From the NCBI GenBank assembly GCA_034620365.1, contig JAQGEQ010000079.1, positions 496,001 through 560,000 on the forward strand: DNA of 64,000 nt. Direction: 5' to 3'. Position numbers and translations under genes: made by a program. Shown piece after piece: positions 1 through 62,667 of this stretch (positions within the stretch are counted from its first letter, which is position 1; each line of letters starts with the position of its first letter). Origin of the DNA: Pegea sp. RAD2-039. Taxonomy: Eukaryota; Chordata; Thaliacea; Salpida; Salpidae. The notes below the pieces were generated by a model. That model was not told the DNA's origin. It was given only the letters and a program-made list of their open reading frames with translations, and ran no database searches.

Positions 1-482
1 TTATCTCTCTATCAGTTATCCATAAAGATACGTCATGATGTCACTTGCTGACGTCATCACACAGTTATTTAAGCTGCAGTAATGATAAAAAGTCGATTAG
101 CAGATTGTCAGCGGTAGGCAGCAGCTTGGCTTCTTGCATTTGTTTCAAATTTTAGAGTAATTTTTCAGAGATTTGTGTTTAGTGAAGCGGAACTTATCCA
201 AATAAAAGTCAGTGAGACAGAACGAGGTTTTTGTGAAGTTGTTTGAAAGGACAAACTCGACACAAAAATCAACAAAAGAAGATTCTAAAAGTGATGTAAT
301 ATTCATGAGGCTCGCGTGTGTGCATAGCAATATGCACAAGTCTATTACGTCACATGCGTCAAAGAAGCAAACTTTCGTTTTTGTTTTAAAAAATTGCGTG
401 AACTACGCGAAAACGCGACTCATTTGTATCGTTTTGATCAGAACTTCTTGTTTATACAGGAAGTGATTTATTTGTTGATAAG
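1..482 (+). promoter_or_regulatory. 5' flank of the first gene, with a CRE-type palindrome
   Basis: This stretch lies upstream of the ATG at 483 and carries one perfect TGACGTCA at 49-56. No convincing coding exon is seen. Short open frames exist, but they have no recognisable content and no matching splice phases. A pyrimidine-rich stretch followed by an AG just before the ATG (about 455-466) could be a splice or trans-splice acceptor in the 5' untranslated region. Promoter function is inferred from position only. Confidence 0.35.
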
Positions 483-1954
483 ATGATGAATGAATCAGCT
501 GGAATCTGTGACGTCATCATCAAGGAAGCACGTCAGCCGAAGACGAGCAACAGGAAGTCGAATACGCGAAGGAAGTTGAAGATATCATTAGAGAAGTATA
601 AAGACATGAGCGAAGATGAAGACTCCGTGTTCTCTGATGTTCCTGAAGATGAAGATTTGAGTGAAATCGATGAAGATTGGTTGAACGCTGATATAGTGAG
701 TGCGCGACGACAAAAACCGGTAATGACGTCATCTGTTTGCAGGATTCCGACAGCAGTTGCATCTCAAGACTCGATGATCCATTGATGTCGCGATCCAAGG
801 AAAAAACTAATGGCAAAAAGAGCTTTGATGACGTCATCAGGTCGAATAGAGTAAAGAAGTCTAACGTCATCATCAAATCAAATGACGTCATCAAATCGAA
901 TTACATCAAGAAGACAGATGACGTCATCAAATCGAATGACTTTAAGAAGACAAATGACGTCATCAAATCGAATTACATCAAGAAGGCAGATGACGTCATC
1001 AAATCGAATGACTTTAAGAAGACAAATGACGTCATCAAATCGAATGACATCAAGAAAGCAGATGACGTCATCAAAAAAAGCAGCTTGAAGCTGGTGAATG
1101 AAGAAAGTGAAGACGATGAGACCCGAAATGTGGGAACAATCCTCTCAATGTGGGAGCAGAAAAGATCGGATGAGAAGAAAAATGTATGTGAGGTAGAACA
1201 ATTCGATTCTGGGACTATTGGCAGATTGAAAGGAGCTAAAAGTTTGTTTGAGAAGTTGTCTTGTGGTGTGTCTCAAACTCTTCCACGTTCATGGAAGTCT
1301 TCTAGACCTTCCATATTGACGTCATCTGATCGTTATAACGAAGATAAGATATTGAAACGATCTCAGGATGATGTTGAGATGACAAGAGGTTCTAAGATCA
1401 ATTCTAAGGATCAAAGAGCTCAAAACAGTCCTCATGATCACGAAGATGTAGTTATAAAAAGTCCTAAAGATCTCAAGGACCTGAAAACTTCCAGAGAAGA
1501 TTTGAAGATCAAAGAAGCTTTTAAGGATCATAAAGATACAGCTTTACAAAGTCCTCAAAATGCTGTTGGAGATTTTAAAGATCATTACAAGGACGCGAAG
1601 GTCCTAGAAACTTCTAAGTACGATAAATTTCATGAAACTCCAGATGCTTCTAAAGATCACAATAAAGATCTTAAAGTTACGAAGAAAACTTCCGAAAACT
1701 TCTCGAACTCAAAGCTTGAAGCTATTAAAAGATCTTCAACAGATTTCGAATCAGCAAACGGTCTCGAAGAACCCTCTTTGCCGGCACCTAGTGGTAGATC
1801 CTTATCTTCTAAGATCGAAAAGATAAATAGCTTTGAAAGACCAGAATCTTCTTGCAACTACAGCGGAAATTTTACTGATGAAGATCTTTCGGATGTATCC
1901 TCTCTTTCATCTGCTTCTACAGATGAAGAAGATCTCGATGATCTACTTCTCTGA
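483..1954 (+). CDS. Acidic, Lys/Ser-rich repeat protein, two exons, function unknown
   Basis: Two exons are read: 483-695 (71 codons) and 743-1954. The intron between them is 47 bp (GTGAGT donor, TTTGCAG acceptor) and the frame is kept, giving about 474 residues. The start begins Met-Met-Asn; a long acidic stretch (SEDEDSVFSDVPEDEDLSEI) follows. Next comes a tandem repeat of 12 residues of the type DDVIKSNYIKKT (see the repeat entry). The rest is rich in Lys, Asp and Ser and looks disordered. The tail is Ser/Asp-rich and ends DDLLL before the stop. An AATAAA at 2236-2241 fits a polyadenylation signal. I see no signal peptide, membrane segment or catalytic motif. It lies 1 kb upstream of supervillin on the same strand. 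It could be an alternative 5' half of supervillin, whose N-terminal half is also disordered in other animals, but the stop codon and poly(A) signal favour a separate gene. Confidence 0.6.
883..1076 (+). repeat. 36-bp coding tandem repeat with a CRE palindrome in every unit
   Basis: Perfect TGACGTCA palindromes start at 883, 919, 955, 991, 1027 and 1063, exactly 36 bp apart. Each unit encodes 12 residues with the core DDVIKSN or NDVIKSN, followed by Tyr-Ile or Asp-Phe/Ile and two lysines. Two unit types (Tyr-Ile and Asp-Phe) alternate at first, suggesting growth by a 72-bp step. A further palindrome at 829 and a degenerate one at 862 precede the array. Confidence 0.9.
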
Positions 1955-2988
1955 CGTCACAAATGCATGAGACTACACACAAGCTTTCAGCAAATTTTGT
2001 TCTTGTGCTTCATCAATAACGAGATGACGTCATGACCATCGTCGCCAATCGATAAAGTCGTCATGGCAACCATAAAAGTCTCTTCATTGTGAACGAATTA
2101 CGTGCACAAGTCGAAAACGCCATTAAGCGACTCCAAATTGCTCAGTGACGTCACTGTGATGACGTCACCATGTGTGTAAGCTAATACGTCATCAATTCTC
2201 GAGATTTCAGTTTCTTTTTTTAATTCATATTTTTCAATAAAACAAACTTTTACAAACAGCTAAAATCAATTGAGGTGAAAAATAAAGAAGGAATTACTTC
2301 GAGGTGAAAAATGTCGAGATCTTACTCTCAGGATCTGAAGATATTTCAATAAATTATGATGAAGATGTAGACAAGTTTTGAATTATTAAAAAGTAGATTA
2401 TGATGAAATTCTTAATTATTCATTAATTCCATTTATACTAGTTCAGAAGTAAAAGGGTTTCCGAATTATTTTTAACAATTTCTAATCAAATTTTCTTCAT
2501 AAAAACTTTACCTAAAAAGTTACATCAATTTGATAATTACTTCATGAGAGTTAGATGGTTTTCGCTGCCATAGTGATCAGTTTTTTTCTATTTCTCTTCA
2601 GTTCTACTCTTAACTATCGACTGCTTATTGTTCTAACAACCACAAACTGTAAAAAGTAAATAAGCTGTGAAAGAACTTTGTATAAAAACTGAAACAAAAT
2701 TTAGTGAGAAGCTTTATAAGTTTAGAGGTGCTTAAAACTCTTAAGAAACTAGAATTGTTGAAGACTATCTTCTTTTAATAATTAACTCTTGTTTTTTATT
2801 TGTTTTAAGCCTTTATTTATTATCTACTTGAGTTAGAAAGACAGATTACTTGTGAAGATTTATCAAAATCAGGTTTTAGTTTAGAAGTTATATTTCAAAG
2901 AAAACTAAAAATAAATTTTCTATTTTCATTCATTTGCATATTTTTCATAAAAAGTTGAAAATTGAATCTGTTGGAGTCTCAAAAAAGC
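1955..2988 (+). other. 3' untranslated region, then AT-rich spacer
   Basis: The first 280 bp carry four TGACGTCA palindromes (one spans the stop region at about 1952) and end at an AATAAA (2236-2241), so this is probably the 3' UTR of the first gene. From 2242 to 2988 the sequence is AT-rich. I see no gene in it. The supervillin start codon follows at 2989. Confidence 0.5.
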
Positions 2989-5900
2989 ATGCAAAAAAGT
3001 GAATCTCAAAAAGTAAGTGAATTGATAAAACTTTTTAAGAATTTCTTTAAAACTTAGTGATAAGGATTCGAATTATTATCTTAAGTTAACAAATGAATTA
3101 TTTATAACTTCTTAGAAGGTTTTACCGGAATCTTGTTTTACAGGCAAGAAACCCTCGTAAGTTGGTCAGGTCTGTGACCCAACCAATTTCATATGATGAT
3201 ATTAAAGCAGCTCAATCCAAAATCAATTTGAGGTTTGTTATCTTTCATTATTTGTTTGATAATTAAATAAATTCAAAAATAAATTTATAAGAACTTAATT
3301 TTAAATTAAAAATAAATGTTTATTGTAAAAACAAATTCTAGAATTTCTATTTCTCACCAAAAGCTAGATTTTTATTTTTGATTATAATTTCAATAAATTT
3401 GAAGTGATAAAATCAGCTTTAAATATTTGTTTCAACCATTTTATCAAATAAATGATTATAAAATAATATATAATTCGAGTTTTCTGAACAAATTAACTAC
3501 CTGGGTAAATATTTAGATAGTGGTAAACACGGGCAAATCTTCTGTTGAAATTTGGTTCCACCCCTAAACTGATTGTTTTAAGATTTCTCACAACTTTTAA
3601 ATATAATCTAATTTATTAAAATTTAGTTAATCTAATTATATTTTTCTGCTTTTTAATTTCATCATAAGTTAATTTTGTTTTCCGCAAGATATCTGTCTTC
3701 ATCTTTTGCTGAACTTTTTGAATTTTTAAAATATATAAACAAATATAATAATCTTGATGAAAATATATTAGTTTTGTTTGTTATTTAGATTTAAATTTGA
3801 AATTTATTAACTTGTTTAACCGACTGTTAATAACTCAACTCTCTTTCTACATTTGGCACTTATCATCTGTTAAATGTTTATATTTTGAAAAAAAGCAATA
3901 TTTCAAAACCTACTCAGGCTAAGTAGCGTTAAATGTGAAATCAAACAAAACCAGTTTTGTCTTTGAAACAGTTATGTTAGCAACAAGTTACTTTATTTTC
4001 ATTTATCAACAATTTACAAATTTATTTGGTAATTGGAATTCTCTACTTTTAGAAGGTTGTCGAAATAAATTTTTATAGAAAGTTCAATAACACTAATTTT
4101 TTATTTTGAGTTTTATAGTCTAAAAATAAATTGTATTTATTGGTGACGTTAAAAATAGTCGATACAAAAGTGCATCATAACATTGATAACAATCTGTTGT
4201 TTGTGTTTAGTAAATTAGATAGTAATTGCGCTTACGAGAAGATGCAATAAAATTTTCAGCATACTTTATTTGTTAAGAAAAATTTAAAATTTAAGTAAAG
4301 ACTTAAATTCAAAGATTTGTTTTATTAAGATAAAATTGTTTAAAAAACCTTAATAAAAATGGTTGTTAGTAAGTTAAACTCTTAAGTTATATTAAAAAAA
4401 TTTATTTGAACAATGTTAAACTTTGTATGTTTTTACTTGTATGAAAAACGTTTTATTTTACAAAATATTACTTTTAGTGAAATATTTATTTAGTAGCTAT
4501 TCAGTCTTATAAAAAAGCAAACAATTTTCAAACGTTTTATTCCATGATCGCTATGTTAATATCTAAAATTAATTATGTGTCCAATTAAACTATAGACGAT
4601 TCTTAAATAGGCAATATTTTTGTTGTTTAATGAAAAATGCAAAGAAACAAATTCTGAGCAAAAATTTTAAAAAGTATGGTGATTACTTTTAGATTTAGAA
4701 TTTTTAAAAAGCAGTCAAAAGTCAAAACGTCTTAGAGAAAGGTAGTTTATTAAGGGTGTATCACGTGACTGCTTATTACTGTTTATGTATGACTACTCAT
4801 AACACGCTAATGGAATCTGTTTAAGTAAAAACTTAATGACTACCATAAATTTATCATCAGCTAATTAAATGAAATATAAAAAGAAAAAAATTGCATTTTA
4901 AAAATTGTTACAAGTTAAAATGGAAAAAGCAAATTGCCGAAAATTCAGGTAAGCATTTTTAACGTTTATTTTTGTATTTTCAATTATAAACTAGATTATG
5001 TCGATAAAACTTGTAAAACATTACCTTACATAGTATATAGTTCTTATAAGATTTTTTTCGTCGCAGTTTTCCAGTTAAAAAAAAAGTATATTTGATAAAT
5101 TGTATAAAAAGTGATTTATAATATGTTTGGATAAGAATATCTATTATAAAAGTTCATTAAAATAAAGTTCTATTTTAAAATTGGAACTTTAAACCTTTTT
5201 ATGTTTATTTGAAGAAATATTTTGATTTTTTATTCCAATTATAGATTGAGATAATTTTAAAAATTCAAAACCACTTTTTATGTCAGTATATCTCTGGTAC
5301 TCACCAAAAATATTTGCCAAATATTTATAAATGTTTTAAACTTAAAAATTATTTCTATTTTAATTTTTTATTCGCTTTCAACAGGAATATTATTATCTGA
5401 AAACTTTTCTAAACGTCAGATAAAAATCGATTTCTCGCAAATTTCAATTGGTTTATACATTTCAAAAAAAAAAATTAAATTACTGCAATTAAATGTTTTT
5501 CGAAAAAACATTATATTTTAATTCTTTTATTTATAAAAACAATTAGTTTCATGTTTACAAGCAAAAAATAGAGAAAGTAGTTGGCTTTGAGCTTGAAGTT
5601 TGTGATGTTTTGAATTTGTTTTTCTCAACGCCGCAGCTTCTTTCTCCTTACCCCTTGAGAAATGCTTTATCACAAAAAACTATTGAAGCGAATCTTTTTT
5701 TGCACAAAGTTTAATGGTTCTTTTATTCGAATGATTACTTTGTTTACTTCTTCAAATACTTTTAATTGTGAAATTGTGAAATGTGAATTTAATTTACTTT
5801 TGAAATTTCTATATATAGATAGATTAACTTACTTGCATAATAATCTTCTTTTTTAGTTTAGTCAGATGTTATTTATATTCAGTTGTTGTGTTCTTCATAT

Positions 5901-8900
5901 CAACAAAACTGTCAACAAAAATTGTTGATGGATTCTGAAATGATTCTAGAGTAATTTGAAAACTAATCTGAAGTTGTTTATCTTGACATATAGTTGATTC
6001 ATTAAGTATTTTGAGTTGTAATATCCTAAATAATTATAGAATTTATAAACGTTTTTCATGAAGACCTTTTGTTGATACTTTAGATACGAAAAAATCTATT
6101 TTCTTCCTTTTATAAAAATGAAAAAAAAGTTTTTTAGTTAGTAGATAAGTTTTTTAGAAAGTAAATTTAACTTTCATAAATTACTGTTAATTTTAAAAAC
6201 ATCTGAAAAGTTCTATTTTATTTAAATGAAAAAGTTTAATTAGAAGAGCTTAAAAAAGCTGATAAAATTGTTTGGGGAATTTTCATTTAATTCTGTTTAG
6301 TAGCTCCAAATATATTTTTTTATATTTTTATTGAAGTAGAACTCAGAAAGGAATTATCTTTGAGTTTAATCTTGAAATTTTATGAGCCAAATTTTTATAG
6401 TAACTTATTAAACTTGAATAATTTGTCAGTTTATTTTGTAACCCAAAAAAGTTTTTTTTTACATAAATATTATGAAAAATTATTTCGAAATACTTAAAGT
6501 AAAATTTAAATCTATAAAATTGTTGAACTATTTCTTTATAAATATTTTTATTACATAATTTTTTTCATTGTGAATTTTAAGATTAAATTAGAGGATTTTC
6601 TTTAAAGAAAATTTCAGTAAATTTTTTCACTATAAATGTTTATTGTGATGAACAATCTGATTAATGTTACTTATTTTCAGTTGTATTTTTAGCTTTTCTC
6701 TTATTTTCTGTTTGTTTATATTTAGTTTGTTTTTGATTACCTGCCAAAATATTTTAGTCATTATATAAAATAGTCAACATCAAAATATTTGAACAAATAG
6801 ATTTTATTATAAAATTATAATCATAATAAGACTTTCTTTTAATCATTTTTCCAATAATTCCTAAATTATCTTATTTTTCAAAAATCAATAAATTGAAAAT
6901 TTCACTAAAACTTTGAAAATCAATCATTATGTAATCTTTATTAATATTGAAAATATATTTATGGATTTATTCTGTTTTTTTCATCCAATATTGAACTAAT
7001 AATAACATTTTCATGTAGTGATGGTGTAGCTCTTTCTTTTACTGAAAGAGTTTTGTTTTTTAACAATATCAATCAAGCTACAAGAAGCAACACTATTGGC
7101 AGACCCAAGAAAAAAACAGGTTTGTTAGAAAGTTGTCATTTTAGTAATTGATATTTTGTTTGAATTTTTCCATTTGTCAAGATTGAGATGAAGTAAGTAG
7201 AATTTGTTGATATTAAAAAGTATTTTTTTTTCATTCACTTCCTGAAGTGACGTCATCATTGCTGTAAATGTTTCATATTTTGTAGATACAAATTTGTTGA
7301 TTAAAAGAAGGTTAGAGGTTTTACAAGAGAAGTCATCTAAGAAAATAGATCGATTTGAAAAGGCAAGCTTGGAGTTTTTATTTACAAACTTATTACGTTA
7401 GATCTTTTATTTTAATTTTGAAATAAATTATTTTGTTTTCTACAAATATTTGTAAACAAGTCATCTATTTTCCACTTCCTTATATGGCTCTCAATTCAGT
7501 AGACGATTTTTACAACTTTGATGACGTCATCGTTAACACGCGACTTTATTAACTATCTTTATTCTAAATTATAGAAGTCACCTGACAACAAACCAATAAG
7601 CCGTCCCAGCCCAGTGGTCCATTCCAAATCAGTGGACCATTTTAAACCAGTGGACCATTTGAAACGAGTGGACCATTTGAAACCAGTGGACCATTTGAAA
7701 CGAGTGGACCATTTGAAACCAGTGGACCATTTGAAACCAGTGGACCATTTGAAACCAGTGGACCATTTGAAACGAGTGGACCATTTGAAACCAGCGGACC
7801 ATTTGAAACCAGTGGACCATTTGAAACCAGTGGACCATTTGAAACGAGTGGACCATTTTAAACCAGCGGACCATTTGAAACCAGTGGACCAGCTGTCTGA
7901 CCGCTCATCGAACAAAGTCGTTGATGAGGTCATGGCCTCTCGCAAGTGAGTTGAAACTATTTAGTGTCGTGTGATTGATGACGTCATTATGACGTAGTGA
8001 AAGCGGTGAAAAGATGAAGAACGCGAAGCTGATCGAGCTGGAAGGGAAGATATCAGTTCGAGAGAGGTTGTTGTTTGTAGTATTTGATCTTGATGATCTT
8101 TAAGATCTTCATCTTCAGGATGAAGATGTTAGAAAAGAGCAAAGAGGAAGAGTCATGGAGAAAGAGCAAGATCAAGATCGGGAGTAAGAAGAAGATTTCT
8201 TCAATTAACGAACGTCTTGGCAAGCTTCACGAGCATACCGACAAGGTGATGACGTCACACACGCGATGTCGTCTATGACGTAATTGATCGTTTAGAAGTC
8301 GGAAGCAAGTGGAGAAGTGGTTGCTACGACAACGAATCCTATCAAAGAGCGATTAAACGCGATGATGAATAACAGCGAGAAGTGGAAGATGAAGATGGGA
8401 AAGCAAAATGATGCCAAACAATTTACTGTCAAAAGCAAAATTGCTAAGAAAGGTTAATGGTGATGACGTCATCACTGATCGTGACGTCATGACTCTTCGT
8501 AGACTTGCCAACTGCGGCGGTATCACCTCTTGTACATCGTAAACTCCCTCTTACTCTTGACCAGCCAGCTGTGACGTTACGTGAAGTCAGTAGTGACGTC
8601 ACGAGTCTAGAAGGATTGTCGAAAGTGTCTCAATTGGCGCGGAAGGGATTACAGGAGAATGTGATCAAGGTCTCTCTCATCAAGATCTTCCGATCGGAGA
8701 TCAACTTCCGTTTGTTGACAGAAAACTGATTTTCGGATTCAAGAAATCCCGGATATTTGTGATGATAGTTTCGAGACCTTCTTTCAGCCCACCATCATCA
8801 ATAAATGTCCCGTATTCAAGGAAGATCTGGATGAAGATCACGATGAAGATCTCAAAGATGATTTCGTATATGAGAAGACAATTGAAGAACTCGTCAATGA

Positions 8901-13182: not shown

Positions 13183-14344
13183 TCTTCATCATTTTAACTA
13201 TTTCTGATGTTGCTGCTTCTTCATCCTAATCTTTAAACATCTCACCTGATCTTTATCTTTCTGATCTTCATCTTTCTTAGCTGCTTCTGTTCATCGCACA
13301 TTTTATTGGTAATAAAAAATCGTCAGAAAAATATTCTGAAATCAAATAACAAGTTGTTGTGATCAACTTTCAAATAATTCTAATTCTCAATTTTTTAGTT
13401 TTATCAGATTTCTTTGCACCTTCACTTGTAAAAACTCCTCGCCAACAACATCCAGTCAATCACTTATCTAAAACTTAGTGCTTGAGTTGATATAGATAGA
13501 AAATTAATCCTAAAACTTCAAAAGATTAATTCTGAATCGTGATATTTACATCTGATGTTTTAAAGACTCAACAAACCTCTAACTTTTTACTGAGTTCAAA
13601 TCCACTGAGTAGCTTTTAGCTGTTTCCATCTCAGCTGGAAGAATTCCAACAATTTCATAATATATTATTTAATGATCAAATGATGAATGAAAGATTTTTG
13701 TAGATCTTCTGATAATCGATGAGATCTTTTAATTAAATTATTTATAATTTTATCAGTTTTATAATAATTACTAAATCAGTAGAAAATTATTTGTAAAAAG
13801 TTTTAAACAAGTTGTTGAATTTCTACTTGTTAGGAGACAAGAAACAGAAGAGTTATGATTTGATGACTGCCTCAGGCGCTGTTGTCATAAAACTTTCACT
13901 TTTTTGAAGTTGGTTTTAAAACATCTTGAAATTTTAGATATCTTTTTCTAATTAAGTTTTTATTATGAGAAAATATCAATTGTATTTTGATAAAGTTGAA
14001 TCATAAGTTTGATGTTTAAAATGAATTTATATGTTCAAGTCGAGACTTGTAAGTTTACTTTTTATATAAATTGATTCAAACAGCAAATTTCTTATTCTTT
14101 AAACCATGTCTTTATACTGCTACTAGTTGAGATTAAATATTTTTTTAATATTTATGAATTTATAATGAAAATTTATATTTTAAAAATCAGTTTGTTTTTG
14201 ATTTAATGAATTATATAATAATTTCAATTCTTATTTTTGCAGTTTGATTTTTTTTATAGTTTACAATAATTTAAAAAAATCTTGATGTTATTTTTAAATT
14301 AAGATAAAAAAATGATTAATTAAAACAAAAATGAAAATTGTAAA
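13183..14344 (+). other. AT-rich intergenic spacer
   Basis: This separates the supervillin stop from the glycosyltransferase start. An AATAAA-like run at about 13310 could be the supervillin poly(A) signal. I see no coding content, and TGACGTCA is absent. Confidence 0.5.
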
Positions 14345-47395: not shown

Positions 47396-47611
47396 CGCGC
47401 GCAATCGATTGTTGCTATTGACGACCGCAATTTAATTAAAACTCGATTTAAAAACTAATTTTGTGTGTTTCAACCGATGACGTCATCAGCTTTTCTTTCT
47501 GATGTAAGAAAGAAATATTTTTTGAAGTTTTGAAATTTGTTTGAAGCAAAAAATTAATTCAAAAAATTGGAAATAATTTAAAAATTTTAATTTCGACTTC
47601 GATTTAGTAAC

Positions 47612-47627
47612 GGTTGCCATAGCAACC
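47612..47627 (+). promoter_or_regulatory. X-box (RFX-type) palindrome
   Basis: GGTTGCCATAGCAACC is a near-perfect inverted repeat matching the X-box bound by RFX transcription factors. It lies just past the connexin stop codon, in its presumed 3' UTR. Binding is inferred from the motif only. Confidence 0.5.
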
Positions 47628-47631
47628 CACA

Positions 47632-51783: not shown

Positions 51784-54315
51784 ATGCAGACCTGGAAGAT
51801 TAGGACTTTTTCAGTTGAAAAGATCATAGAACCAATTCTGAAGGCTATCACTAATCTCACAGAGAACAGAGATCCACCTAAAGATTGGATAAACAACAAA
51901 GAGAAACGCAATGATTTGCTGAAGAAGATGAAGAAAGCGCTTTACAACGCGTGTAGAGTAGGGTGCTTAGTTGGTAAAGAAAGTGAAGATGAAAATGTGA
52001 AGAGAGAGGTTGTAGACACTGTGAGCAAACTGAAGTCTTTAGGATCATCACTTGAGGTCGCTGTTAATGAGTTTGTTAATTCTGGTTTGACGCCAGAGAA
52101 GCAACGCGCGATGCGGTGTACAGGTAAAGAGTTGTTGTCCATGGTTACCAAGCTGCTAATTCTAGCTGATATGACTGATGTTGGGACTATTCTGAGTAAC
52201 TTGAATGAAGTAGCTGAAGCGATTGAAGCGATTAAAAACTCACAAACATCTGAACAGATCGAGAACAACTTTCAACGTAATAATGATCGAATGCTTCGAT
52301 TGAATCAAGCGCTTTTTCAACGACAGAAAGATTTAAACGATCCTGAAGCTCATGACCGACTAGCACAAGCTCGATGTAAGCTTGAAACGAGCTACAAGTT
52401 TCTACATGCAGCTAAACTAGTCAGCTGTGAGATCCCGGATGTTGCCGCGGCTCTCGATAACTCCGATTTGATCTTTAAAGACGTCATGAGTTCAATTGAT
52501 GATATTAATATGGCTCTTACGTCAAAAGAAAAAGATCCTGAACAAGAAGATATTCCTCTTAATCTGATGCAGGCTCTTGATGATTTTATTAATCGTGTTG
52601 ATATCAACCCACTTGAGTTTGTTGAAGTGAGACATCGCCCTACATTTGAAGAGCAGTTGGAAAGTGTAGTCGAGGGAGCAGCTTGTTTAGCAGATTCGAA
52701 ATGTACTCGAGAAAACACTCGAAATTTAATAGTTGAAGAATGTAATAATGTGAGAAATAAGTTGCAGGATCTACTGACTGAATACAAGAAGAGTTTGGTA
52801 CAAGAGCAAGCAACTAAAGAAGTTGAAACTGCTTACAGTGAGATGGTGGAAAAAACTCAAAACTTGAAAGGTCAACTCACTAAAGCAGGAATTGATCATG
52901 TGTCTGATGCTTTTACTGATAAAGAAGTCGTGACAACTCTAGTAGATGCTGCTTGTCATGGCAACGAACGTAATGTAAAAAATGAAATTGAACATTTTCT
53001 TGACCATTCACAAACACTTGTTCTCGCTGCTAACGCTGTTTCGATGACGTCACAAAATCCAAACGCTGTTAAAATGGTGAATTTAGCGAAAGATCAGTTG
53101 GAAAGACTTAATTCACAACTAATCAATTCTGCTTTATCTGTTGCTGTGAAACCGGAGAATATAAATGCAATACGAATCCTAGATATGTACAAGAAACTGT
53201 GGCTGGCAAGATTTGAGGTACTTGAAGATAGTGTCGATGAAGCTGTTGATGTCGATAAGTTTCTAGAAGTATCTGAATCTCATATTATGAATGATCTAAG
53301 CTTTTTAATTGATGCTTTTAATCGAGAAGATGTTGAAGTTATGAAGCAGCAGTTTGATGCAACTTTCAACCGATGTAAGCGAGTCTGTAAAGTTTTGAAA
53401 GATGAGATATGCGAAGACAAGATAGGTGAAGATCAAAAGAAGATTTTAGAAAGCTATAAGAAGTTGACAGGAACCTTGAAAGGAAATTTCAAAGAACAAG
53501 TTTCAAAATCAGCTCAAAATCTTAAAATTGGAGTTCGGAAAGATGCAAGAGACACGCGGTTAGTTGATGCATGTTGGATGGTTTATGATGGTGTGAAAGA
53601 TGCTCGGGCGGCAGTTACAAGTGTCCCAGAATTCAGAGAGCCAAAAGTTATAGATCTGAAGTTACAAGAAGTTGAAAAGAAACAGAATTTTCAAGTTGAA
53701 ACTCAAGATGTGAAAATAAAAAGAGAATTTGATGAAGAAGAAAAAACAAAAATTCAAAATACAGTTGAAGAGTTCGACGAAGAAAAAAGGGCGTTTGAAA
53801 TCGAAGTTTCGAAATTCGATTGTGACTCGAACGAAGTGATTCAACTCGCTCGAAAAATGTGTGATGTCATGAACGAGATGACCAAGTACACAAATGGAAA
53901 GGGACAGTTGAAAACCACTAATGACGTCATAGATGCAGCGCGATTTATCGCCAAGTTAGGTTCAAGATTGAATAAACTAACAAATGAGATCGCTTCATCT
54001 TGCCCAGATGTAAATGTGAAAAGTGATCTTCAAGCCTATATACAACGAGTTTCTCTCTACTGCCACCAGTTGACGATGTGTGCAAGAGTTGAAACAGAAG
54101 TTTGTATGAACTCCGGGAAAATTGTATCTGGTATTGAAGGAGCTATGTCCTTGCTTCAAGCATCAAAGAATTTGATGAACACAGTTGTGCTTTTAATGAA
54201 AAGTTCATATACTGCTTCAACGAAAAGCTCTAATCCAAATAAAGATGTTTCTAAGATTAGATGGATGATAAAAGTTCCTGATAAAAAACCATTGATACTT
54301 CGTGAAGACTTGTAG
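51784..54315 (+). CDS. Alpha-catenin, intronless copy
   Basis: Alpha-catenin links cadherin-beta-catenin to F-actin. The 843-residue frame is colinear with the family. The N-terminal start reads WKIRTFSVEKIIEPILKAIT. Next comes ELLSMVTKLLILADMTDV in the beta-catenin-binding/dimerisation domain. The M domain carries RPTFEEQLESVVEGAACLAD, the helix around LQDLLTEYKKSL, and DHVSDAFTDKEVV. The actin-binding domain carries VSKFDCDSNEVIQLARKMCD, TNGKGQLKTTNDVIDAAR, then LQAYIQRVSLYCHQL, and the helix with EGAMSLLQASKNLMNTVV. It ends VPDKKPLILREDL, about 30-40 residues short of the usual C-terminal tail. The divergent linker at about residues 590-640 is charged. There are no introns although neighbours are intron-rich, which suggests retroposition followed by retention, since the frame is intact over 2.5 kb. 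Confidence 0.93.
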   Translation: MQTWKIRTFSVEKIIEPILKAITNLTENRDPPKDWINNKEKRNDLLKKMKKALYNACRVGCLVGKESEDENVKREVVDTVSKLKSLGSSLEVAVNEFVNSGLTPEKQRAMRCTGKELLSMVTKLLILADMTDVGTILSNLNEVAEAIEAIKNSQTSEQIENNFQRNNDRMLRLNQALFQRQKDLNDPEAHDRLAQARCKLETSYKFLHAAKLVSCEIPDVAAALDNSDLIFKDVMSSIDDINMALTSKEKDPEQEDIPLNLMQALDDFINRVDINPLEFVEVRHRPTFEEQLESVVEGAACLADSKCTRENTRNLIVEECNNVRNKLQDLLTEYKKSLVQEQATKEVETAYSEMVEKTQNLKGQLTKAGIDHVSDAFTDKEVVTTLVDAACHGNERNVKNEIEHFLDHSQTLVLAANAVSMTSQNPNAVKMVNLAKDQLERLNSQLINSALSVAVKPENINAIRILDMYKKLWLARFEVLEDSVDEAVDVDKFLEVSESHIMNDLSFLIDAFNREDVEVMKQQFDATFNRCKRVCKVLKDEICEDKIGEDQKKILESYKKLTGTLKGNFKEQVSKSAQNLKIGVRKDARDTRLVDACWMVYDGVKDARAAVTSVPEFREPKVIDLKLQEVEKKQNFQVETQDVKIKREFDEEEKTKIQNTVEEFDEEKRAFEIEVSKFDCDSNEVIQLARKMCDVMNEMTKYTNGKGQLKTTNDVIDAARFIAKLGSRLNKLTNEIASSCPDVNVKSDLQAYIQRVSLYCHQLTMCARVETEVCMNSGKIVSGIEGAMSLLQASKNLMNTVVLLMKSSYTASTKSSNPNKDVSKIRWMIKVPDKKPLILREDL

Positions 54316-55504
54316 TATGATGACAATCTAGTTTCTGTTTATACAGACAAAATATTTCATTCTCTAAACGTCATCATTGATAAAAATCTTTTAATTTTTC
54401 TAATGTTAATTTTTTAAATATTTTGTCATGTTTTCATGACACAAATAATTGTAACTTTATTTCCTGGTTTTCAAAATCCATTTATAATTATCAGATGATT
54501 TTAATTTGTTCATTCTCACAAAACTTTTGTTTGATCGAAATATTCCATGATTATTTGTACCACTTAGTATCTGATGAGTCTCCTAAAACCTCATCGAGTC
54601 TTACAACCTTCTTCTAGTCATTCTAATATAAATACAATTTATTGATTTGTGTGATGTCTTCTTCTCTGTCTCAATTTTTGAGTTTTATGATTAAAGTCTG
54701 AGCCAGCAATGAAATCATAAAAAACTTTTTAAATTTCTCAAATAATTCAAATAAAAGTCAATTCGAGTTTTCAAGATTTTTATAATTCTTTTTTAACATA
54801 ACCTAAAAACTGAATTTGAGAAGCATTTAAGGTATGACTGACTTCATTACAATAGTTGTCTTTAGAAACTTTATATCAAAAGTCTTGCTTTAATCACTTT
54901 TAAAGATTCTTATGCTTTGAGCCAGTTCCAAATTTAACTGTTAACTATTAAAAAACTGCTAACTTTAATAATATATTAAGTTTATATATAATTACACTAT
55001 TAAATTTAATTATTAAAATTCACATTATTGTATTTTGTTTACAATTTTCTTGTTGTTATAAAAATACTTTTTGAAATTTATAAAAAGATCTTTTTGTCAA
55101 CATTTTGAACTATAAAAAGTTCTTTTTGAAAACTTTTCTTAGTAAAATAAGATTTTCAAAATTTTCTTATTGCTTTTCAAGTCAAGTTGTTTTTTTAAAT
55201 TTTTGTCTAGATGAAGTTTTAATTACAAAATCATTTTGATAAATTAAACTTAACTTGCTTTAAATTCTCTAAATTTATAAATGAATAAAATAAATAAAAC
55301 TTTTAATGTTCAAATAGATTTTGAGATTTATAAAAATATCTTAGAAGTTAACAGTCTTATACACAACAAAAGTTTATTTTCAGCATTTCAGTTTTTGCAC
55401 AAACTTAAACATTTTTAATGTTTGTTAATACATCTCTACTACTGTTTATATTCAAAATAGATGATTAAGTATTTCAAAGTGGAGTTAAATACATCAAATA
55501 TTGT
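54316..55504 (+). other. AT-rich spacer downstream of alpha-catenin
   Basis: No coding content is recognised. It ends in the left copy of the SINE target-site duplication (AAATATTGT at 55496-55504). Confidence 0.5.
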
Positions 55505-55691
55505 TGTCCTGCTTAGTGGCGAAGCGGTTACTACCACCTACCTTCTAGCTAGGAAGTACCGGGTTCGACCCCAGGTGGAGACATATAAAAACTCCTGAGA
55601 AAAACCATAAAAAACTCGTGAGAATGTGTGTTAGTGAGATGTGCTCTCTTTAGGCACCCTCCACGCATTTATATATATAAATAAATAAATA
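55505..55691 (+). mobile_element. tRNA-derived SINE with target-site duplication
   Basis: The head has RNA polymerase III promoter boxes: box A as TAGTGGCGAAGCGG (from about 55514) and box B as GGGTTCGACCCC (about 55561). These come with the spacing of a tRNA gene but with a poorly paired acceptor stem. A tRNA-unrelated body of about 90 bp follows, then an (ATAA)n tail at about 55670-55691. Identical 9-bp flanks AAATATTGT at 55496-55504 and 55692-55700 are target-site duplications, so this is a single complete insertion. Intact promoter boxes and duplications suggest it is fairly young. Confidence 0.88.
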
Positions 55692-55700
55692 AAATATTGT

Positions 55701-56475
55701 CAAGATACCTTACTATTCATATCTAAAACCTAAAATACTTCATTAAAAATAACTTAAAAATAAACGTTTTATTTATAAATTGTTCGTAAAACTACAAAAA
55801 GATAAATCATTAGTCTATGTTTTAAAACTTTTCACAAAAATATTGTTCAGTGTAATAACAAGAATTTATAGAAGCAATTGATAAAAGTTGTAAATAGATT
55901 TTAAGATTACTTTTCTAATAATAGGTTTTTTATACAAACTTTATTTTATAATAAAATACAAAAGTTTTGAAATTTCCTCATGAACAAATCAAATACTTTT
56001 TAAAAACTTTTATTCGAATTTTTAGTGTTACCAAATTTATTTTTGATTTAACATTTCTGTGAAATTATAATTTGATTTTTTAATTACAAATAGATCTTGA
56101 TTTTAATCTGTTTATGGTTATCAGCTTAAATACCAGCTTCAAGTAAATTACGGCTCATCAAATCTAGAAAGAAATATATATTTTTGCTTAAAATATTTCT
56201 TCAATTAAATGTAACTATTTTATAATTTTTAGATTTTTCTGTCAACTCAGAATATTTTCTTATTTCCTTCTTTCATCTTAGTCACATGTAATTAATATTT
56301 TATCACTTATATCAGCAAAATTAGTAACGATTATTTATTCTGTTGACGTCAAAGTACTGAAGGAAATGACAAAAATGTATTTAATTGATGATTTGATCAT
56401 CAGTTTTAATCATAATTTTTCTTTTGGTAGTTAGATAAACAGCTTAATTTTATCGTTTCAATTAATCAGATTTAT
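55701..56475 (+). promoter_or_regulatory. Upstream region of the GPR157-like gene
   Basis: This is AT-rich sequence with one perfect TGACGTCA at 56344-56351, 125 bp upstream of the ATG at 56476. The position resembles a proximal promoter site. Nothing else is recognised. Confidence 0.4.
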
Positions 56476-57459
56476 TTGATAAGCTTATCTATGAATTTCA
56501 CCAACAGCAGTTGCTCTATGTTTAATGGAGATCTTTATAAGTGTAATGTGATATCTGTAGTTAGAAAAACTACAGCTTCTCTATCACTTGCAGGAAGTCT
56601 TTTTATGATCTTCATCATCTGGCTTTTCAGTAAATACAAGTTACAATCTCAGCGTCTTATCTTTTATCTAAGTGTGTCTTCTGCTTGCTACGCGACTGTA
56701 GTGCTAGTAGGAAGTAGAACACCCAGTATCGGGTTTAGATGTACAACAGAAGGATTTCTACTGAACTACTTTGGATGGACAGTTTTACTTTGGGTTAGTT
56801 TTATTACTTTTGATCTTTACATCAATATCATCAGACAAAAAGATACAAATCAGTTTGAAAAGTTCTATCATTTGGTTGCTTGGTTACTACCGCTAATAGT
56901 TAGTGTACTACCATTGCAAGGCGGTTACTATGGACCAGCTGGTGTTTGGTGTTGGATCGTACACGATGCGTTACCATGGAGATTCGGTTTATGGTACGCG
57001 CCTCTATTTGCGATTATTGTTGCCATGTTTTTTGCTTACACGTACATTTACATAGTCGTGCGTCGTCGCGTTACCGGTTGGCATGACAACCAGCAACCGG
57101 AAGTGGGTCGTGACCTCCAAAATCACTTCAATAATCTTCGCTTCTACCCCTGTATCTACCTCGCACTTTCATTTTCACCTTTCGCGCTTCGCGTCTATGA
57201 CATCTTCGCCAACAATCAATCATTTGAATTGTGGCTACTCACTGTCCTGACGGTACCTTTACAGGGTGCAGCAAACGCGGTCTGCTTCGGTTTTGACCCG
57301 ATGACGCGATCGCGTCTTACTTTCAATCAAATCTTTAAAGCGCTTCGAAATCGCTTTTGCCGCGCTTCTCGTGAATATCAACCGTCGCCAGCGGGTGGCG
57401 CTAACCGCCGCAGAATCACTGTCCAACAGTCTTTTTACGATGATTACCGTCAAGCATGA
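56476..57459 (+). CDS. GPR157: GPR157-like seven-transmembrane receptor, intronless
   Basis: A single exon encodes 327 residues, close to the length of vertebrate GPR157. A short N-terminus has possible N-glycosylation sites (NFTNSS). Seven hydrophobic segments follow, including LSLAGSLFMIFIIWLF, LIFYLSVSSACYATVVLV and LNYFGWTVLLWVSFITFDLY. The loop before segment 5 has GVWCWI, then a segment starting FGLWYAPLFAIIVAMFFAYT. These are typical of the cAMP-receptor-like/GPR157 group and differ from class A (no DRY or NPxxY). The C-terminal tail is basic and ends in aromatic and acidic residues. GPR157 in vertebrates is a ciliary Gq-coupled receptor, but function here is inferred. The start could also be the Met six residues in. 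AATAAA sites lie at about 57574-57583. Lack of introns may be original or due to retroposition. Confidence 0.82.
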   Translation: MISLSMNFTNSSCSMFNGDLYKCNVISVVRKTTASLSLAGSLFMIFIIWLFSKYKLQSQRLIFYLSVSSACYATVVLVGSRTPSIGFRCTTEGFLLNYFGWTVLLWVSFITFDLYINIIRQKDTNQFEKFYHLVAWLLPLIVSVLPLQGGYYGPAGVWCWIVHDALPWRFGLWYAPLFAIIVAMFFAYTYIYIVVRRRVTGWHDNQQPEVGRDLQNHFNNLRFYPCIYLALSFSPFALRVYDIFANNQSFELWLLTVLTVPLQGAANAVCFGFDPMTRSRLTFNQIFKALRNRFCRASREYQPSPAGGANRRRITVQQSFYDDYRQA

Positions 57460-57914
57460 CGTCATCACACGCGAAATATGACGTCATCAGACACAATTTG
57501 ATGAGGATTTTGTATTGTTGAATGAATTTACATCAATATCGACAAGTGAATGACTCGAACTTGCCGAGCGTGAAATAAATAAACCGAATCAGCTCATTGT
57601 GACGTCACATGATGATGATGAAGAGTTTGGAAGATGAGGATCTGTTTCGAGTCACTTCACAGTTCGTTCAGTTTCAATGATTCAAAAATAAAATTTCGAT
57701 TTTAAAACTTTTAGTGGCGAAAATGTTTGTTGGCAAAAATGGCCCAGTGATGGGAAAGCACCTAGTAAAAATGCACAAAATGAAAACTAGGGAGTAAAAG
57801 TTTCGAAGGCAAGTTCGATTAAGTCGTAATTAGTGCTAAAAAATGGAATTGGAAAAAAATTCACTGAAATAATTGCGAATAATTGAAAATAGTGATTAAA
57901 AAGTGAAAATGTGA
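57460..57914. other. Short spacer between two convergent genes, with three CRE palindromes
   Basis: TGACGTCA copies lie at about 57458, 57479 and 57599, in the presumed 3' UTR of the GPR157-like gene, which ends at AATAAA (57574-57583). The remainder up to the neurabin stop codon shows nothing further. Confidence 0.5.
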
Positions 57915-60900
57915 TTAAAAAAGTAGAGATCTCCGGTGAGATTGTCGACTTGAATTTAACTTTTTGTTTTGCTTTTTCATTTGTTTTTTCTTCTTTTCAT
58001 ATAAACTTCTCAATTCTTTCAATTTTCGTTTTAATATCGTTCTTGTAGCTTTATTTCCGAATTCCTAAAAATACTCAAACTTGAAATATTTTTCAAAAAA
58101 AGCCAAAATAGTCACCTTGAAGTTGAAGTTAAGAGAAAGTAATTTATCACCATCTAGTTGAAGTTGTTGAGTTTTTGCAACAAATTGTTCCAAATTGTTT
58201 CCTCTCATCCAATTTTCCACATCATCTACACTCCAATTAGGAAGATTTAAAATATTAGAAGGAAAATTGAAATTTAAATGAAAATTTTCATCTTTAGATG
58301 AAATATCCAAATTAAAAGCCTGAAATGAGACATTGAAGTAGATGAAGATGATGAGGAGGAGAAAAAGTACTTCAGATAAAGATGAAGTCGTCGAAGTTGC
58401 TGATAAAGGTCGCTTCGGTGACGTCATCTGTTCTTCTGTAATCTAATTAAAGATTCAAACTTTAAATTAAAAATTTATTTTTTTTATTAACTTGTTTTTT
58501 TTGAATTATTTCTTCATTTTGATTTTCATAAGTTTTGTCCAAATCTCCGGTTTGTGACTTTAACACTGCTACCTCGTCTCGCGTGCTACTATGACGTCAT
58601 CTATTACATCACTAGCTTATAATAATATAATTAAATACTTGTTAGTGTGTGACGTCATCGCTTCTTCAGCTTCTTTCTGTAGCTGTTTCTATGCATTGAA
58701 CAAAACCCATTAAAACAATCATCACTTAGCAACCACTCGAATCGAACCTTCGCGTCGAATGACGTCACAAACAAGTTTGGTCGATTAATGGCAAGTACAT
58801 TGTCTAATTCGCCGATGATATCTTCAGTTAGGTTGTCATAGACACTACCAACAACTTTATCACTTTCATCGCTAGTTACCGCTGCACCTTCGATACAAAT
58901 GACGTCATCATCAGCTACTTCATTTGTTGATATTTTTAACTGAAACAGCGGAAATGACGTCACAAAACTCACCCGTCGAGTTGTTTTCAAGTTGGGGGGT
59001 TTTCCCTTCGCTATCAGAAGACTGCTGAGTGTTGTTAGAGTCGAGTCCTTTCATCGGAAGATTAGCGGCCATCGCGATTTGATTGATCTGAAGATGACAA
59101 GCGGTTGTGACGTCATTAATTGAGAAGATGAAGATCTCACCTGGACTTCGAGAGTTGAGATTTTGCTCTCTACTTGATCTTTATCTTTCTGGAGTTTATT
59201 AATGTGATCTTTTAACGTACTCTCACGACGTAGAAACTCTTCTTCTCTAAAGACACAATCTTTATGACGTAATCTCATCTTTACAACCTCACCTTGTTTG
59301 AAACTCCTTGATCAGCTTCTTCGCTTTATTATACTTCTTCTCGAGCAAGCAAGCATGTGCTTTGGTTTCATCTAGTTGTGCTTTTGTTGTAACCACTTCG
59401 ATCTTTAACTCAGCAAGTTGTTGGTGAGACTACAAGTAATTAAAAGAGATTATATGAAGCTGAGGTGGTTATTATCTGATATATTTACGAGGACGTGTAC
59501 TTACATCATCACCTACTACTTCTTCAACTGCAGTTGGTTGTTGTTCAAATGTCTGCAAAAAATTTGCTGTTATTTTCCAAAAGTTGAATAAAAATAAAAA
59601 CAAACAAAAAAACAACAAGAAAATTAAAATAAGTTGTTTAAGTGAGAAAAGTAAAATGAAAGAAATGTAGAACATAAAGTCGAAATAAAAAGATTCTGGT
59701 TAGTTTATAGGTTAATGATTAACAATCAAACAAACATAAAATCCCACAGATGAAGATGTTTACCAAAAAGTCTCTTCACAGGATCAAGTGCTCCAAATGA
59801 TGTCCTCAGATCTAGACAAAATCAACTAAACAGCAGAGAAGTCCCAACCCACATCAACTCAACTCAAAGCACAAACAGTTTTCATTCCATTTGTATTTAT
59901 TAATCTTATTACGAAGCGTAAGAAAGAATAAAAAAGCTGAATCGCGGAAGACGTATTAGTATCAAAGTTAGCAATGATTGTAAGTGGATTAGCTTGAAGT
60001 TGGCAGAGTAGTTGGAATGTTTTGATGTGTACTTTGTCCGTGTAACAAAAACTATTTGATGAAATTAAGAACGTACAAATTGTTGATGGAGGCTACTCCT
60101 TTGAGGGAGCTCTTCATCTTCGGATTGTTCATCAATAATCTGTCAAAGATGAAATTAAGAACGTACAAATTGTTGATGGAGGCTACTCCTTTGAGGGAGC
60201 TCTTCATCTTCGGATTGTTCATCAATAATCTGTCAAAGATCTGAGGTGTGATGACGTCAAGATCTTTGTACTAACCGCTTGATTCAGATCTTCATCCTCT
60301 TCTTCTTCTTCTTCGCTGTAATTTTCTTGATGATTTCTTTTCTCTCTTTCAATTGAAATCTGAACAAGCCTAGCGATCTGAATATCACAAGATCAGAAAT
60401 TGGATGAAACATGAAGATGCAGATAGTCACCTCGGAATTATGAGGGTCTTTTTCGCGTCCAACTTTAAATCGGATCACACCCGTTGTATTGGAAAGAACA
60501 TCAGACGCGTAATGTTGAGAAACTCCCACTAGTGAGTGTCCATCAACTTCTATGATTTGATCATTTACCTTGATCCTATAAAAAGCGATAAATCACTTCA
60601 GGAACCTCATAAGCCTTGAAAAGGTCAACTAGAAGCCCCAGGGGACCCCAAAACTGACCTGTCATCTGCATGGATGCTTCCTCCAGGTACGACCGTCTTC
60701 ACAAACATCCCTAGCTTCTCGACTCCAGTGTCTGCTCCCACTCCAATTCCAACAATACTTAAACCTAAAGGTTGAGATCCTGGAACAAATCAGGGGTCAA
60801 AGGTGAAAGGGGCGTGTTGAATGAACCGGAACCTTTCTCGATTTCAACATCGAAAATGATTAGACGCTCGAGTCGCTTCTCTAACTCGTACTCGGCAGTA

Positions 60901-62667
60901 GCGATGATTGGATCTGCTTCGTCATTGAAGCGATCATATTCATCTTTTGAATACGTCACAAACACCTACGCGCGCGTATCAGTCACATGTGAAAGGGGGT
61001 TGGGGCGTATGGGGCACCTGAATCGGGTCACAGCTAAATCCGACTTTCCGGGGACGCGCGATTTCATCAATTGGGACTTCTTCGAGAAGTTCCTGGGGAA
61101 GTCCCGGGATTTCGTAATAGAACAAACGATTATCGACTGCACGAGAAGTTGGTAACGTCACAATTGTTTATCATCGGTTGCCACTCACCTGTTGCCTCAT
61201 CTTCATCGCTGTTCGCGTCGTTTATGACGTCATCAACGTTCTGAGTATAGTCTTCTTGTACTATTCCGACGTCATTGATGCTTTGAATGGTTTGTTCTTC
61301 TACTGCCGTGACGTCATCGACGATTTGATGAAAATCTTCTTCTACTGCTGTGACGTCATCAACGCTGTGAGTACGCTGTTCTTCTACTGCAATGACGTCA
61401 TCGACGCCTTGATAACACTCTTCGTTTACTGCTGTAACGTCATCAAGGCTGGGCGTTTCTCGCACGTCATCGTCATTATCAACAGCATTGATGACGTAAG
61501 AAGCATCGAGATGATCCTGACAGGAATCTTCACTATCACAATCAGGCATCAGATCTTCTCCCAGATGAGCTGGGACGGATGTAGAAGATTTTAATTGACT
61601 TTCACGTCCAGTAGTAGCTAATTCTTCAAATGATTGAGATATTTTGCGGACATTACAAGATTTACTCTCCAAATGTCCCACAACCACCTCTAATGATGGA
61701 CTACTGGCTACTTGGACGGGGGTTGGAGTTGCTTCATGGGCGCTGTAGAAGCCGTTGATGACGTCATCGCTGCTTGAAACTGAGTTGTTTGTATCACTTT
61801 TGCTAGTAACTGAAGTAGACAGGGCGGACATGTAATTAGTGAGGTATGTGGACCGGTTCTTGTTGTTGCTTATTAGTAACGAGTTTGGGCGAGGGGCAGG
61901 TTTGGGGTGGTTACGGACAGGAGTGGTTAGTAAGGACACAGATCTGGAACGCTCTTCAAACGCCATGATGATTGCTCCAACCTTTGCGCGTTTCTTTTCT
62001 GTAGAAGATAAAGATTAGAAGATAAAGATTAGAAGATGAAGATTAGAAGATAAAGATTAGAAGATAAAGATTAGAAGATAAAGATTAGAAGATAAAGATT
62101 AGAAGATAAAGATTAGAAGATAAAGATTAGAAGATGAAGATTAGAAGATGAAGATTAGAAGATGAAGATTAGAAGATGGAGATTAGAAGATGAAGATTAG
62201 AAGATGAAGATTAGAAGATGAAGATTAGAAGATGAAGATTAGAAGATGAAGATTAGAAGATGAAGATTAGAAGATGGAGATTAGAAGATGAAGATTAGAA
62301 GATGAAGATTAGAAGATGAAGATTAGAAGATGGAGATTAGAAGATGAAGATTAGAAGATGAAGATTAGAAGATGAAGATTAGAAGATGAAGATTAGAAGA
62401 TGAAGAAGATGAAGATTAGAAGATGAAGATTAGAAGATGAAGATTAGAAGATGAAGATTAGAAGATGAAGATTAGAAGATGAAGATTAGAAGATGAAGAT
62501 TAGAAGATGAAGAAGATTAGAAGATGAAGATTAGAAGATGAAGATTAGAAGATGAAGATTAGAAGATGAAGATTAGAAGATGAAGATCACTCACCTAATG
62601 CGGACACTGGTGCTTCTGTTTGTGAATTTCTCATAACTTTTGTCATCATTTTCGGACTCTTTGTCAT
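57915..62667 (-). CDS. PPP1R9: Neurabin/spinophilin (PP1-targeting scaffold)
   Basis: This scaffold binds F-actin and targets protein phosphatase 1. From the minus-strand ATG at 62665-62667 (the frame is open further upstream, so an earlier exon is possible), exons are 62595-62667/62703, then 61189-61998, then an exon encoding [22 protein letters not shown]. There RKVGF stands where vertebrate proteins have RKIKF, the PP1-docking motif. Next are [19 protein letters not shown] and [15 protein letters not shown], the PDZ domain ([47 protein letters not shown]) and a Glu-rich linker. The coiled coil has [19 protein letters not shown]. The end is a SAM domain ([32 protein letters not shown]) with [17 protein letters not shown]. 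The middle coiled coil is much shorter than in vertebrates. The exons between 58600 and 59100 are the least certain. Confidence 0.88.
58320..58370 (-). other. 51-bp intron of length 3n with no stop, in neurabin
   Basis: On the minus strand the donor is TCTGAA|GTACTT and the acceptor CATTTCAG|GCT. Removing it joins SLSE to AFNLDIS. If retained, it would add 17 residues rich in Leu, Ile and Phe ([17 protein letters not shown]) just before the SAM domain. Splicing is the more likely state, since neurabins have no membrane segment. Confidence 0.55.
60058..60237 (-). repeat. Exact 90-bp tandem duplication containing a 63-nt neurabin exon
   Basis: Two copies, 60058-60147 and 60148-60237, are identical as read. 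Each contains, on the minus strand, an acceptor (TTTGACAG), a 21-codon exon (60077-60139 and 60167-60229) encoding [20 protein letters not shown] plus Phe, and a GTACGT donor. The 27 bp between the exons is too short to splice and contains a stop in frame, so a transcript could use only one copy. Both choices give the same protein. Confidence 0.85.
61225..61442 (-). repeat. 42-bp coding repeat with CRE palindrome in neurabin
   Basis: Palindromes start at 61225, 61267 (CGACGTCA), 61309, 61351, 61393 and 61435 (TAACGTCA), exactly 42 bp apart. On the minus strand each unit encodes 14 residues of the type [14 protein letters not shown]. The core Asp-Asp-Val comes from the palindrome. The linker codons vary, while the palindrome and the AVEE part are kept. 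Confidence 0.9.
61999..62594 (-). repeat. 14-bp minisatellite filling a neurabin intron
   Basis: About 40 copies of a 14-bp unit (GATTAGAAGATGAA on plus) occupy nearly all of the 596-bp intron. The end towards 62000 has mostly GATAAA variants and the other end GATGAA, with scattered GATGGA and two short units that lack GATTAGAA at about 62400 and 62510. On the transcribed strand it is a pyrimidine-rich CTTCATCTTCTAAT array, each unit with a CTAAT that fits a branch point. Flanking exons join in phase 1 (SAL to EKKRAK). Confidence 0.9.

Follow-up and report, generated by a model that had tools for sequence, protein, structure and literature searches.

The genome of the salp Pegea sp. RAD2-039 was found to contain an 8-bp palindrome, TGACGTCA, in an excess that is real, genome-wide, strong and present at the level of DNA. 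The window analysed here is a stretch of 64,000 nucleotides (C245:496001-560000; JAQGEQ010000079.1), within an assembly whose 387 contigs add up to 105.7 Mb. Perfect copies of TGACGTCA in the window numbered 71, against an expectation of 0.60 and a largest count of 4 in 100 dinucleotide shuffles; the initial annotation of the window had arrived at about 70 by hand. A genome-wide comparison with background, proposed in that annotation, gave 27,792 places for TGACGTCA and 969 for the same letters reversed, and thus no result near expectation. For the extended form GATGACGTCATC, the corresponding numbers were 3,824 and 4. The copies may represent gene-body sites of a CREB/ATF-type bZIP dimer, kept by selection on copy number; judged from sequence, we tentatively regard this as the most likely explanation.

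The palindrome is distributed in patches. Along the window, 15 copies were located at positions 1-2200, none at 2201-7200, 25 at 7201-13200, two at 13201-44700, one at 44701-46600, nine at 46601-50000, three at 50001-57400, 16 at 57401-61800 and none beyond, in agreement with the islands and the near-empty segment of 13.2-44.7 kb recognized at first inspection. The work region consisted of the window plus 100 kb on either side (264 contiguous kb, 248 copies), to which the results below refer unless another scope is given. Both in the window and in this region, TGACGTCA was the top 8-bp palindrome by ratio to expectation, and the reversed palindrome gave a both-strand count of 2 vs 6.2 expected. 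Islands, defined as 4-kb bins picked for at least five copies (60 kb in total), held 193 copies (0.9 expected), and 55 were located outside them (1.0 expected). The density was over-dispersed, with a variance/mean of 14.5 in 10-kb bins. Over the initial 100 copies of C1 the ratio was 3.7, and it was 1.15 for the control, 99 plus-strand copies of the deamination products TGATGTCA. In addition, the density was correlated between adjacent genes (0.38, p 0.016; 29 models).

The flanks were distinct for 468 of the 496 both-strand occurrences, and therefore TGACGTCA is not a repeat family. The top two 8-mers by score, GTCAGTAG and TGTCAGTA, showed only 22 distinct flanks and were rejected as repeats. 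Outside the core, preference was observed for T (70%) or C (23%), then for C (45%) and then for A (61%), fading past three bases. The unit RTGACGTCAY was matched by 62 of the 71 window copies and by 214 of the 248 copies in the work region. Most copies had been described as extended to GATGACGTCATC, which holds for this looser unit but not for the exact 12-mer: the full GATGACGTCATC was present in 11 of the 71 window copies, ATGACGTCAT in 37, and at least one GA../..TC arm in 55. When the arms were oriented by the predicted transcription strand, the two arms of 106 intronic copies resembled each other (T 74/71% and C 21/26% at the first base), and those of 96 exonic copies differed more (T 80/56%). 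The near symmetry of the intronic arms relative to transcription is thus what would be expected of a symmetric dimer bound to duplex DNA rather than of an RNA signal.

Near-matches were few in the islands. The only one-base neighbour strongly raised there was the second-base change, TTACGTCA/TGACGTAA (22 vs 1.7 expected), and the outer-base variants occurred in 0, 2 and 1 copies. All one-mismatch words together amounted to 66 (23.4 expected) beside the 193 intact copies, from which we infer that they are too few for unmaintained, decaying copies. Outside the islands, 75 one-mismatch words (40.1 expected) stood beside 55 intact copies. The AP-1 site TGAGTCA was not raised (28 vs 31.2 expected). 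The deamination products TGATGTCA were enriched 2.7-fold in the islands, and genome-wide they were detected at 11,070 places, compared with 2,673 places for the letters in reverse order.

In three tandem arrays the core is less variable than the remaining positions, with P values that are indicative because the units of one array are related. One is a 22-bp intronic array of 22 units (core differences 3/176, elsewhere 45/308, P 8e-7), and the other two are coding:

Positions 879 to 1075, plus strand: 36-bp coding tandem array with DDVIKSN-type repeats; six units at 883-1063, core differences 0/48, elsewhere 23/168, P 0.003.

Positions 61225 to 61442, minus strand: 42-bp coding tandem array, part of gene 23, with six units; core differences 2/48, elsewhere 55/204, P 2e-4.

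Duplicates of about 3.6 kb were too alike to test the conservation of the core. Tandem duplicates in the right flank (67330-78425 in window numbering) reach about 4 kb in length at 93-98% identity; three of the four retain two copies spaced 20 bp apart, and in the fourth the second place is taken by TGAGGTCA.

The position of TGACGTCA relative to genes was determined on models from a small GT/AG gene finder trained on the 264 kb, which are approximate and without RNA support. Densities per kb were 1.52 in exons (102 copies), 1.50 in introns (125 copies) and 0.19 in intergenic DNA (21 copies), gene bodies being about 8-fold denser than intergenic DNA. Copies were scattered along entire gene models without promoter-proximal bias, and 21 of the 248 were intergenic. 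A motif-rich set was formed from nine models with at least two copies per kb after removal of array repeats, by which gene 9 was dropped. In this set, the density per kb was 7.24 in introns below 120 bp, 3.40 in exons, 2.89 in introns of 120-500 bp and 1.17 in longer introns; in the other models, the same classes gave 2.90, 0.60, 0.29 and 0.17, respectively. The two extremes are gene 0, for dynein heavy chain, with 87 copies in 20.6 kb, and gene 32, with MUN, C2 and C1 domains as in Unc13, with zero copies. The clusters and isolated copies in the window are as follows:

Positions 49 to 2167, unstranded: cluster 1, 15 copies of TGACGTCA, over and just past predicted gene 12.

Positions 7248 to 12982, unstranded: cluster 2, 25 copies, mostly in exons and introns of about 50 bp of predicted gene 14.

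Positions 8453 to 8502, plus strand: predicted 50-bp intron with two complete copies.

Positions 46893 to 49998, unstranded: cluster 3, nine copies, within or close to predicted gene 20 and the connexin gene.

Positions 57457 to 61766, unstranded: cluster 4, 16 copies, from the end of a G-protein-coupled receptor (GPCR) frame through predicted gene 23 (PDZ_5 + PDZ).

Positions 30402 to 30409, unstranded: isolated copy in the motif-poor 13.2-44.7 kb.

Positions 39938 to 39945, unstranded: second isolated copy in the same motif-poor segment.

Many short introns had been described as carrying one copy, often just after the donor. Many copies are indeed located there, at least one being present in 42 of the 222 predicted introns below 120 bp and none in 180, with the reservation that the GT/AG finder possibly over-predicts short introns. 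The placement at the donor was not supported: 16 of the 53 sites in these introns start within the first 12 nt, 12.3 being expected (p 0.14). For two copy-bearing introns of about 50 bp, both in a gelsolin gene, support comes from a protein alignment that runs through them. The proposed link with GC-richer islands turned out to be weak. Among 26 gene models, the density of TGACGTCA showed a correlation of rho 0.49 (p 0.01) with the masked GC of introns; GC at third codon positions (GC3; rho 0.26) and flank GC (0.08) were not significantly tied to it. Germline CpG methylation was set aside as the cause of motif-poor genes: masked gene-body CpG was correlated with density (rho 0.73), yet this came from exons and not from introns (intronic CpG, rho 0.30, p 0.20, not significant; 20 genes), and the deamination products were not concentrated outside the islands.

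Marked effects were observed on coding sequence. In the home-made gene models, exonic copies were read in the frame xDVx 62 times and in the frame xTS 31 times, never in the TGA frame, and 19 lay across predicted exon edges. The two coding frames named in the initial annotation were thus recovered; the lack of the TGA frame, also named there, is true but carries no evidential weight, since this frame is impossible inside an exon. With amino acids and codon usage held fixed, in-frame copies in the nine motif-rich genes numbered 51 at Asp-Val vs 3.2 expected and 25 at Thr-Ser vs 1.4; in thirteen motif-poor genes, they numbered 8 vs 0.4 and 2 vs 0.13, respectively. In-frame copies so far above the amino-acid and codon expectation indicate that the force acts on DNA. 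An explanation by coding or CpG composition had been named as the result that would undo the observation, and it did not hold, in-frame counts in the motif-rich genes standing at 16-18 times expectation. The tripeptides of the motif-rich genes were also shifted by 13-19-fold (MTS 21 vs 1.1, DVI 33 vs 2.3, DDV 33 vs 2.6), and the word thus appears to have changed proteins. CYM, GCY and CWL outrank MTS by fold, their source being a 14-bp tandem array of the window. Arrays of a 14-bp unit are located at 9544-10026 (34.5 copies) and 62002-62587 (42 copies) of the window, and the unit is without the palindrome.

Comparison with homologues was possible for a few copies, two of which belong to the following gene:

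Positions 51784 to 54315, plus strand: alpha-catenin open frame, with exonic copies at 53045 (Met-Thr-Ser frame) and 53922 (Asn-Asp-Val-Ile frame).

Against the solved catenin alpha-1, MTS is aligned over SIS and NDVI over SDVI, both in ungapped columns. In gelsolin, DDVM is aligned over DDVM of a solved homologue, again ungapped. Five dynein copies were present in the query: two were ungapped, one was at a 2-residue gap, one belonged to a stretch aligned without significance (E 1.1e3) and the last was not covered by the alignment. The few comparable copies mostly look like in-place substitutions, and not insertions.

A second palindrome, TCACGTGA, was also raised in gene bodies:

Positions 9286 to 9293, unstranded: TCACGTGA, second gene-body palindrome; also at 4761 (intergenic), 10192, 22599 and 48186.

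In the form RTCACGTGAY it was found at 30 places vs 5 expected, an excess of about 6-fold, with 13 in exons, 15 in introns and two in intergenic DNA (28 of the 30 in predicted gene bodies). This form matches USF2 motifs given in the excerpted text of PMC9164029. The mixed word TGACGTGA was not raised over the 264 kb (5 vs 20.6 expected), with 4 vs 1.7 inside the islands and 1 vs 1.9 elsewhere. A single bZIP protein reading both TGACGTCA and TCACGTGA is disfavoured by this result, and a second dimer is therefore likelier. These observations suggest that the rule covers palindromic binding sites, and not one word alone.

As to the candidate binding protein, 12 bZIP_1 matches were detected in the genome, and a CREB1 bZIP query matched one exon, at C14:685225, with 80% identity over 46 amino acids. 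The unit RTGACGTCAY fits the site of a CREB/ATF-type dimer, and a predicted CREB-like bZIP exon is present. Among published motifs, as excerpted, ATGACGTCAT is both the M26/CRE site (PMC3534124) and a FOSL1::JUN motif (PMC9164029), a FOS motif is GATGACGTCATCA (PMC9164029), and an ATF4 motif is GGATGACGTCATCC (PMC9930257). In mammals, CRE (the CREB/ATF site) is commonest 1-150 bp upstream of start sites; this promoter bias was reported in vertebrates only and was absent from Ciona, according to the excerpt of PMC1796609. A role outside promoters is therefore compatible with what is known of tunicates. Three readings had been offered at the outset: a spreading DNA word, an intronic processing signal, and an architectural or regulatory site. 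The last is best supported, because RTGACGTCAY fits a CREB/ATF dimer, the next word is TGACGTAA and TGAGTCA is not enriched; the intronic processing signal is disfavoured.

In the explanation that we favour, TGACGTCA would be the duplex-DNA site of a CREB/ATF-type bZIP dimer, acting mainly in gene bodies and not at promoters, with many interchangeable copies that populate, in some genes and neighbourhoods, both exons and short introns. A CREB/ATF-type protein would bind these copies, and selection would act on how many sites each gene carries, these serving to open chromatin, to support transcription or to bring about gene-neighbourhood contacts. Such selection may create and keep copies wherever protein tolerates them, and could be effective if the population is very large, as is known of tunicates.

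Several observations weigh against this explanation. The presence of 87 copies together with protein changes in one dynein heavy-chain model is hard to square with weak regulatory selection. The correlation between neighbouring genes fits domain-level forces equally well. The islands were chosen by copy number, and outside them the ratio of 55 intact to 75 one-mismatch copies is less clear-cut. Exonic CpG observed/expected (masked) was correlated with density (rho 0.75; 20 genes), which selection on binding sites does not predict. With an ATF2 query, the best match reached 35% only. Finally, the nameable motif-rich genes are functionally mixed (dynein heavy chain, galactosyltransferase-like, PDZ protein and connexin), and gene function was rejected as the common factor.

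A possible, clearly less probable explanation is that the word is driven, as proposed for HIP1 of cyanobacteria: in germline repair or conversion, a palindrome-recognising protein or enzyme would correct near-matches to TGACGTCA, without help to the gene. Such a process is supported by the overriding of codon choice (51 vs 3.2 and 25 vs 1.4) and of amino-acid choice (MTS 21 vs 1.1, DVI 33 vs 2.3), and by an exon density of about half that of short introns (3.4 vs 7.2 per kb), as if copies were filtered by the TGA frame and protein constraint. The genome contains 11 matches to the PF00145 methylase family, of which seven fall within open frames 832-873 amino acids long, and HIP1 is tied to methyltransferases and to a proposed mismatch-repair model in the excerpted text of PMC4390886. 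The PF00145 matches are located on C57, C249, C32 and C52, some close together, and may be carried by mobile elements, though this is a guess. A driven word would need an extra rule for its confinement to some genes and neighbourhoods and for its sparseness in long introns and intergenic DNA, and its outer bases follow the bZIP preference. Contrary to the prediction of T:G repair, TGATGTCA is not depleted, and Vsr-like T:G repair was rejected on this ground. At meiotic hotspots, moreover, the initiating allele tends to be lost.

The fuller version of this alternative is slightly more doubtful still. It would be a self-promoting iterated palindrome in an animal, in which the word of a CREB-type dimer would have spread through genes by biased germline repair or conversion, written Asp-Asp-Val-Ile and Met-Thr-Ser into proteins and occupied a large share of some 50-bp introns, the second, weaker word RTCACGTGAY obeying the same rule for gene bodies. 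The same binding preference could steer either selection or drive, and therefore the present evidence does not separate these two.

The other explanations fared less well. Meiotic recombination hotspots, at which a factor bound at CRE copies would direct breaks and the word would be enriched where recombination matters, are an unlikely source. In the excerpt of PMC3534124, ATGACGTCAT gives rise to hotspots in both budding and fission yeast, even inside an open reading frame, but M26 is without significant correlation with natural breaks in S. cerevisiae. Masked intron GC climbs modestly with density (rho 0.49), but GC3 and flank GC are not significantly tied to it; furthermore, break-initiating alleles are usually converted away, so that the word should be lost. 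Still less probable is an RNA-level splicing signal of very short introns. Such introns are the densest class, at 7.2 per kb in motif-rich genes and 2.9 per kb in the others, 42 of 222 hold a copy, and two copy-bearing ones have support from the gelsolin alignment; against this, exons carry the word too, the flanks of intronic copies, oriented by transcription, are close to mirror images of each other, the donor position is not significant, and 180 of the 222 short introns, a class possibly over-predicted, are empty.

It is very improbable that the copies are each the footprint, or what remains, of an inserted transposon or micro-palindrome. The clustering, the tandem arrays that hold some copies and the one dynein copy at a 2-residue gap would agree with insertion; the flanks are not shared beyond about three bases, five homologue-comparable copies (two alpha-catenin, one gelsolin and two dynein) are ungapped with one at a gap, and one-mismatch remnants are few in the islands. 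A by-product of amino-acid, codon or CpG composition, to which the exonic CpG correlation (rho 0.75, 20 genes) would point, is refuted by expected in-frame counts 16-18 times too low in motif-rich genes, by equally dense introns and by the reversed palindrome (2 vs 6.2 expected).

Among known systems, CRE shares the octamer and the outer bases, and a CREB-like bZIP exon is present in this genome; CRE differs in being promoter-proximal in mammals, whereas here copies lie along gene bodies, up to 87 in one model. The HIP palindrome is present in coding and non-coding DNA alike; here, exons and introns are equal (1.52 and 1.50 per kb) and intergenic DNA is at 0.19. HIP1 is likewise an 8-bp palindrome at very high genome frequency, but it is bacterial, methyltransferase-linked and biased in its deviations to the first or last base (PMC4390886, as excerpted), whereas here the second base is favoured (TTACGTCA, 22). 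M26/CRE of yeasts has the same ATGACGTCAT and is active inside an open reading frame as well, but it is defined by recombination, and the excerpt of PMC3534124 describes no genome-wide excess or protein rewriting. The CTEP1/CTEP2 sites of ctenophores are alike in that a CpG-containing word is used by few binding proteins at many places, namely promoters and intronic or intergenic loop anchors; they differ in having another GC-rich motif and C2H2 zinc fingers, and exonic overwriting is not described in the excerpted text (PMC12221973). Among the matches listed in the open-licence literature, no report of a genome-wide excess of TGACGTCA in an animal was found, a listing by which absence is unproven.

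If selection keeps the copies, exonic regulatory DNA would be strong enough to rewrite proteins, and gene-body binding sites would form a genome-wide control layer in an animal that appears closely related to vertebrates. If the copies are kept by drive, the palindrome would be an animal counterpart of HIP1, and repair bias would shape proteomes. With tens of thousands of replicate sites, function vs bias in the abundance of binding sites becomes directly testable.

The Rfam scan and the tRNA scan (bacterial code) of the window were both empty, and a search for the COX1 family gave no match. One exon in gene 14 gave a gelsolin-repeat match just under the Pfam cut-off. The connexin gene in cluster 3 is as follows:

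Positions 47632 to 49118, minus strand: connexin gene model, one large exon of which matches PF00029 (E 9.1e-21), with one exonic and two intronic copies of TGACGTCA.

Connexins are not known outside chordates, and this gene accordingly points to a chordate; together with the 105.7 Mb of the assembly and the many introns of about 50 bp, it makes a tunicate likely. The GPCR frame at 56476-57459 of the window gave a match (E 1.7e-18) to PF05462, the cAMP receptor family of slime moulds. Near-identical Glyco_transf_49-type pieces were recognized by eye at 14345-15052 of the window and in the gene 28 model in the right flank (92810-103759 in window numbering), suggesting a recent duplication.

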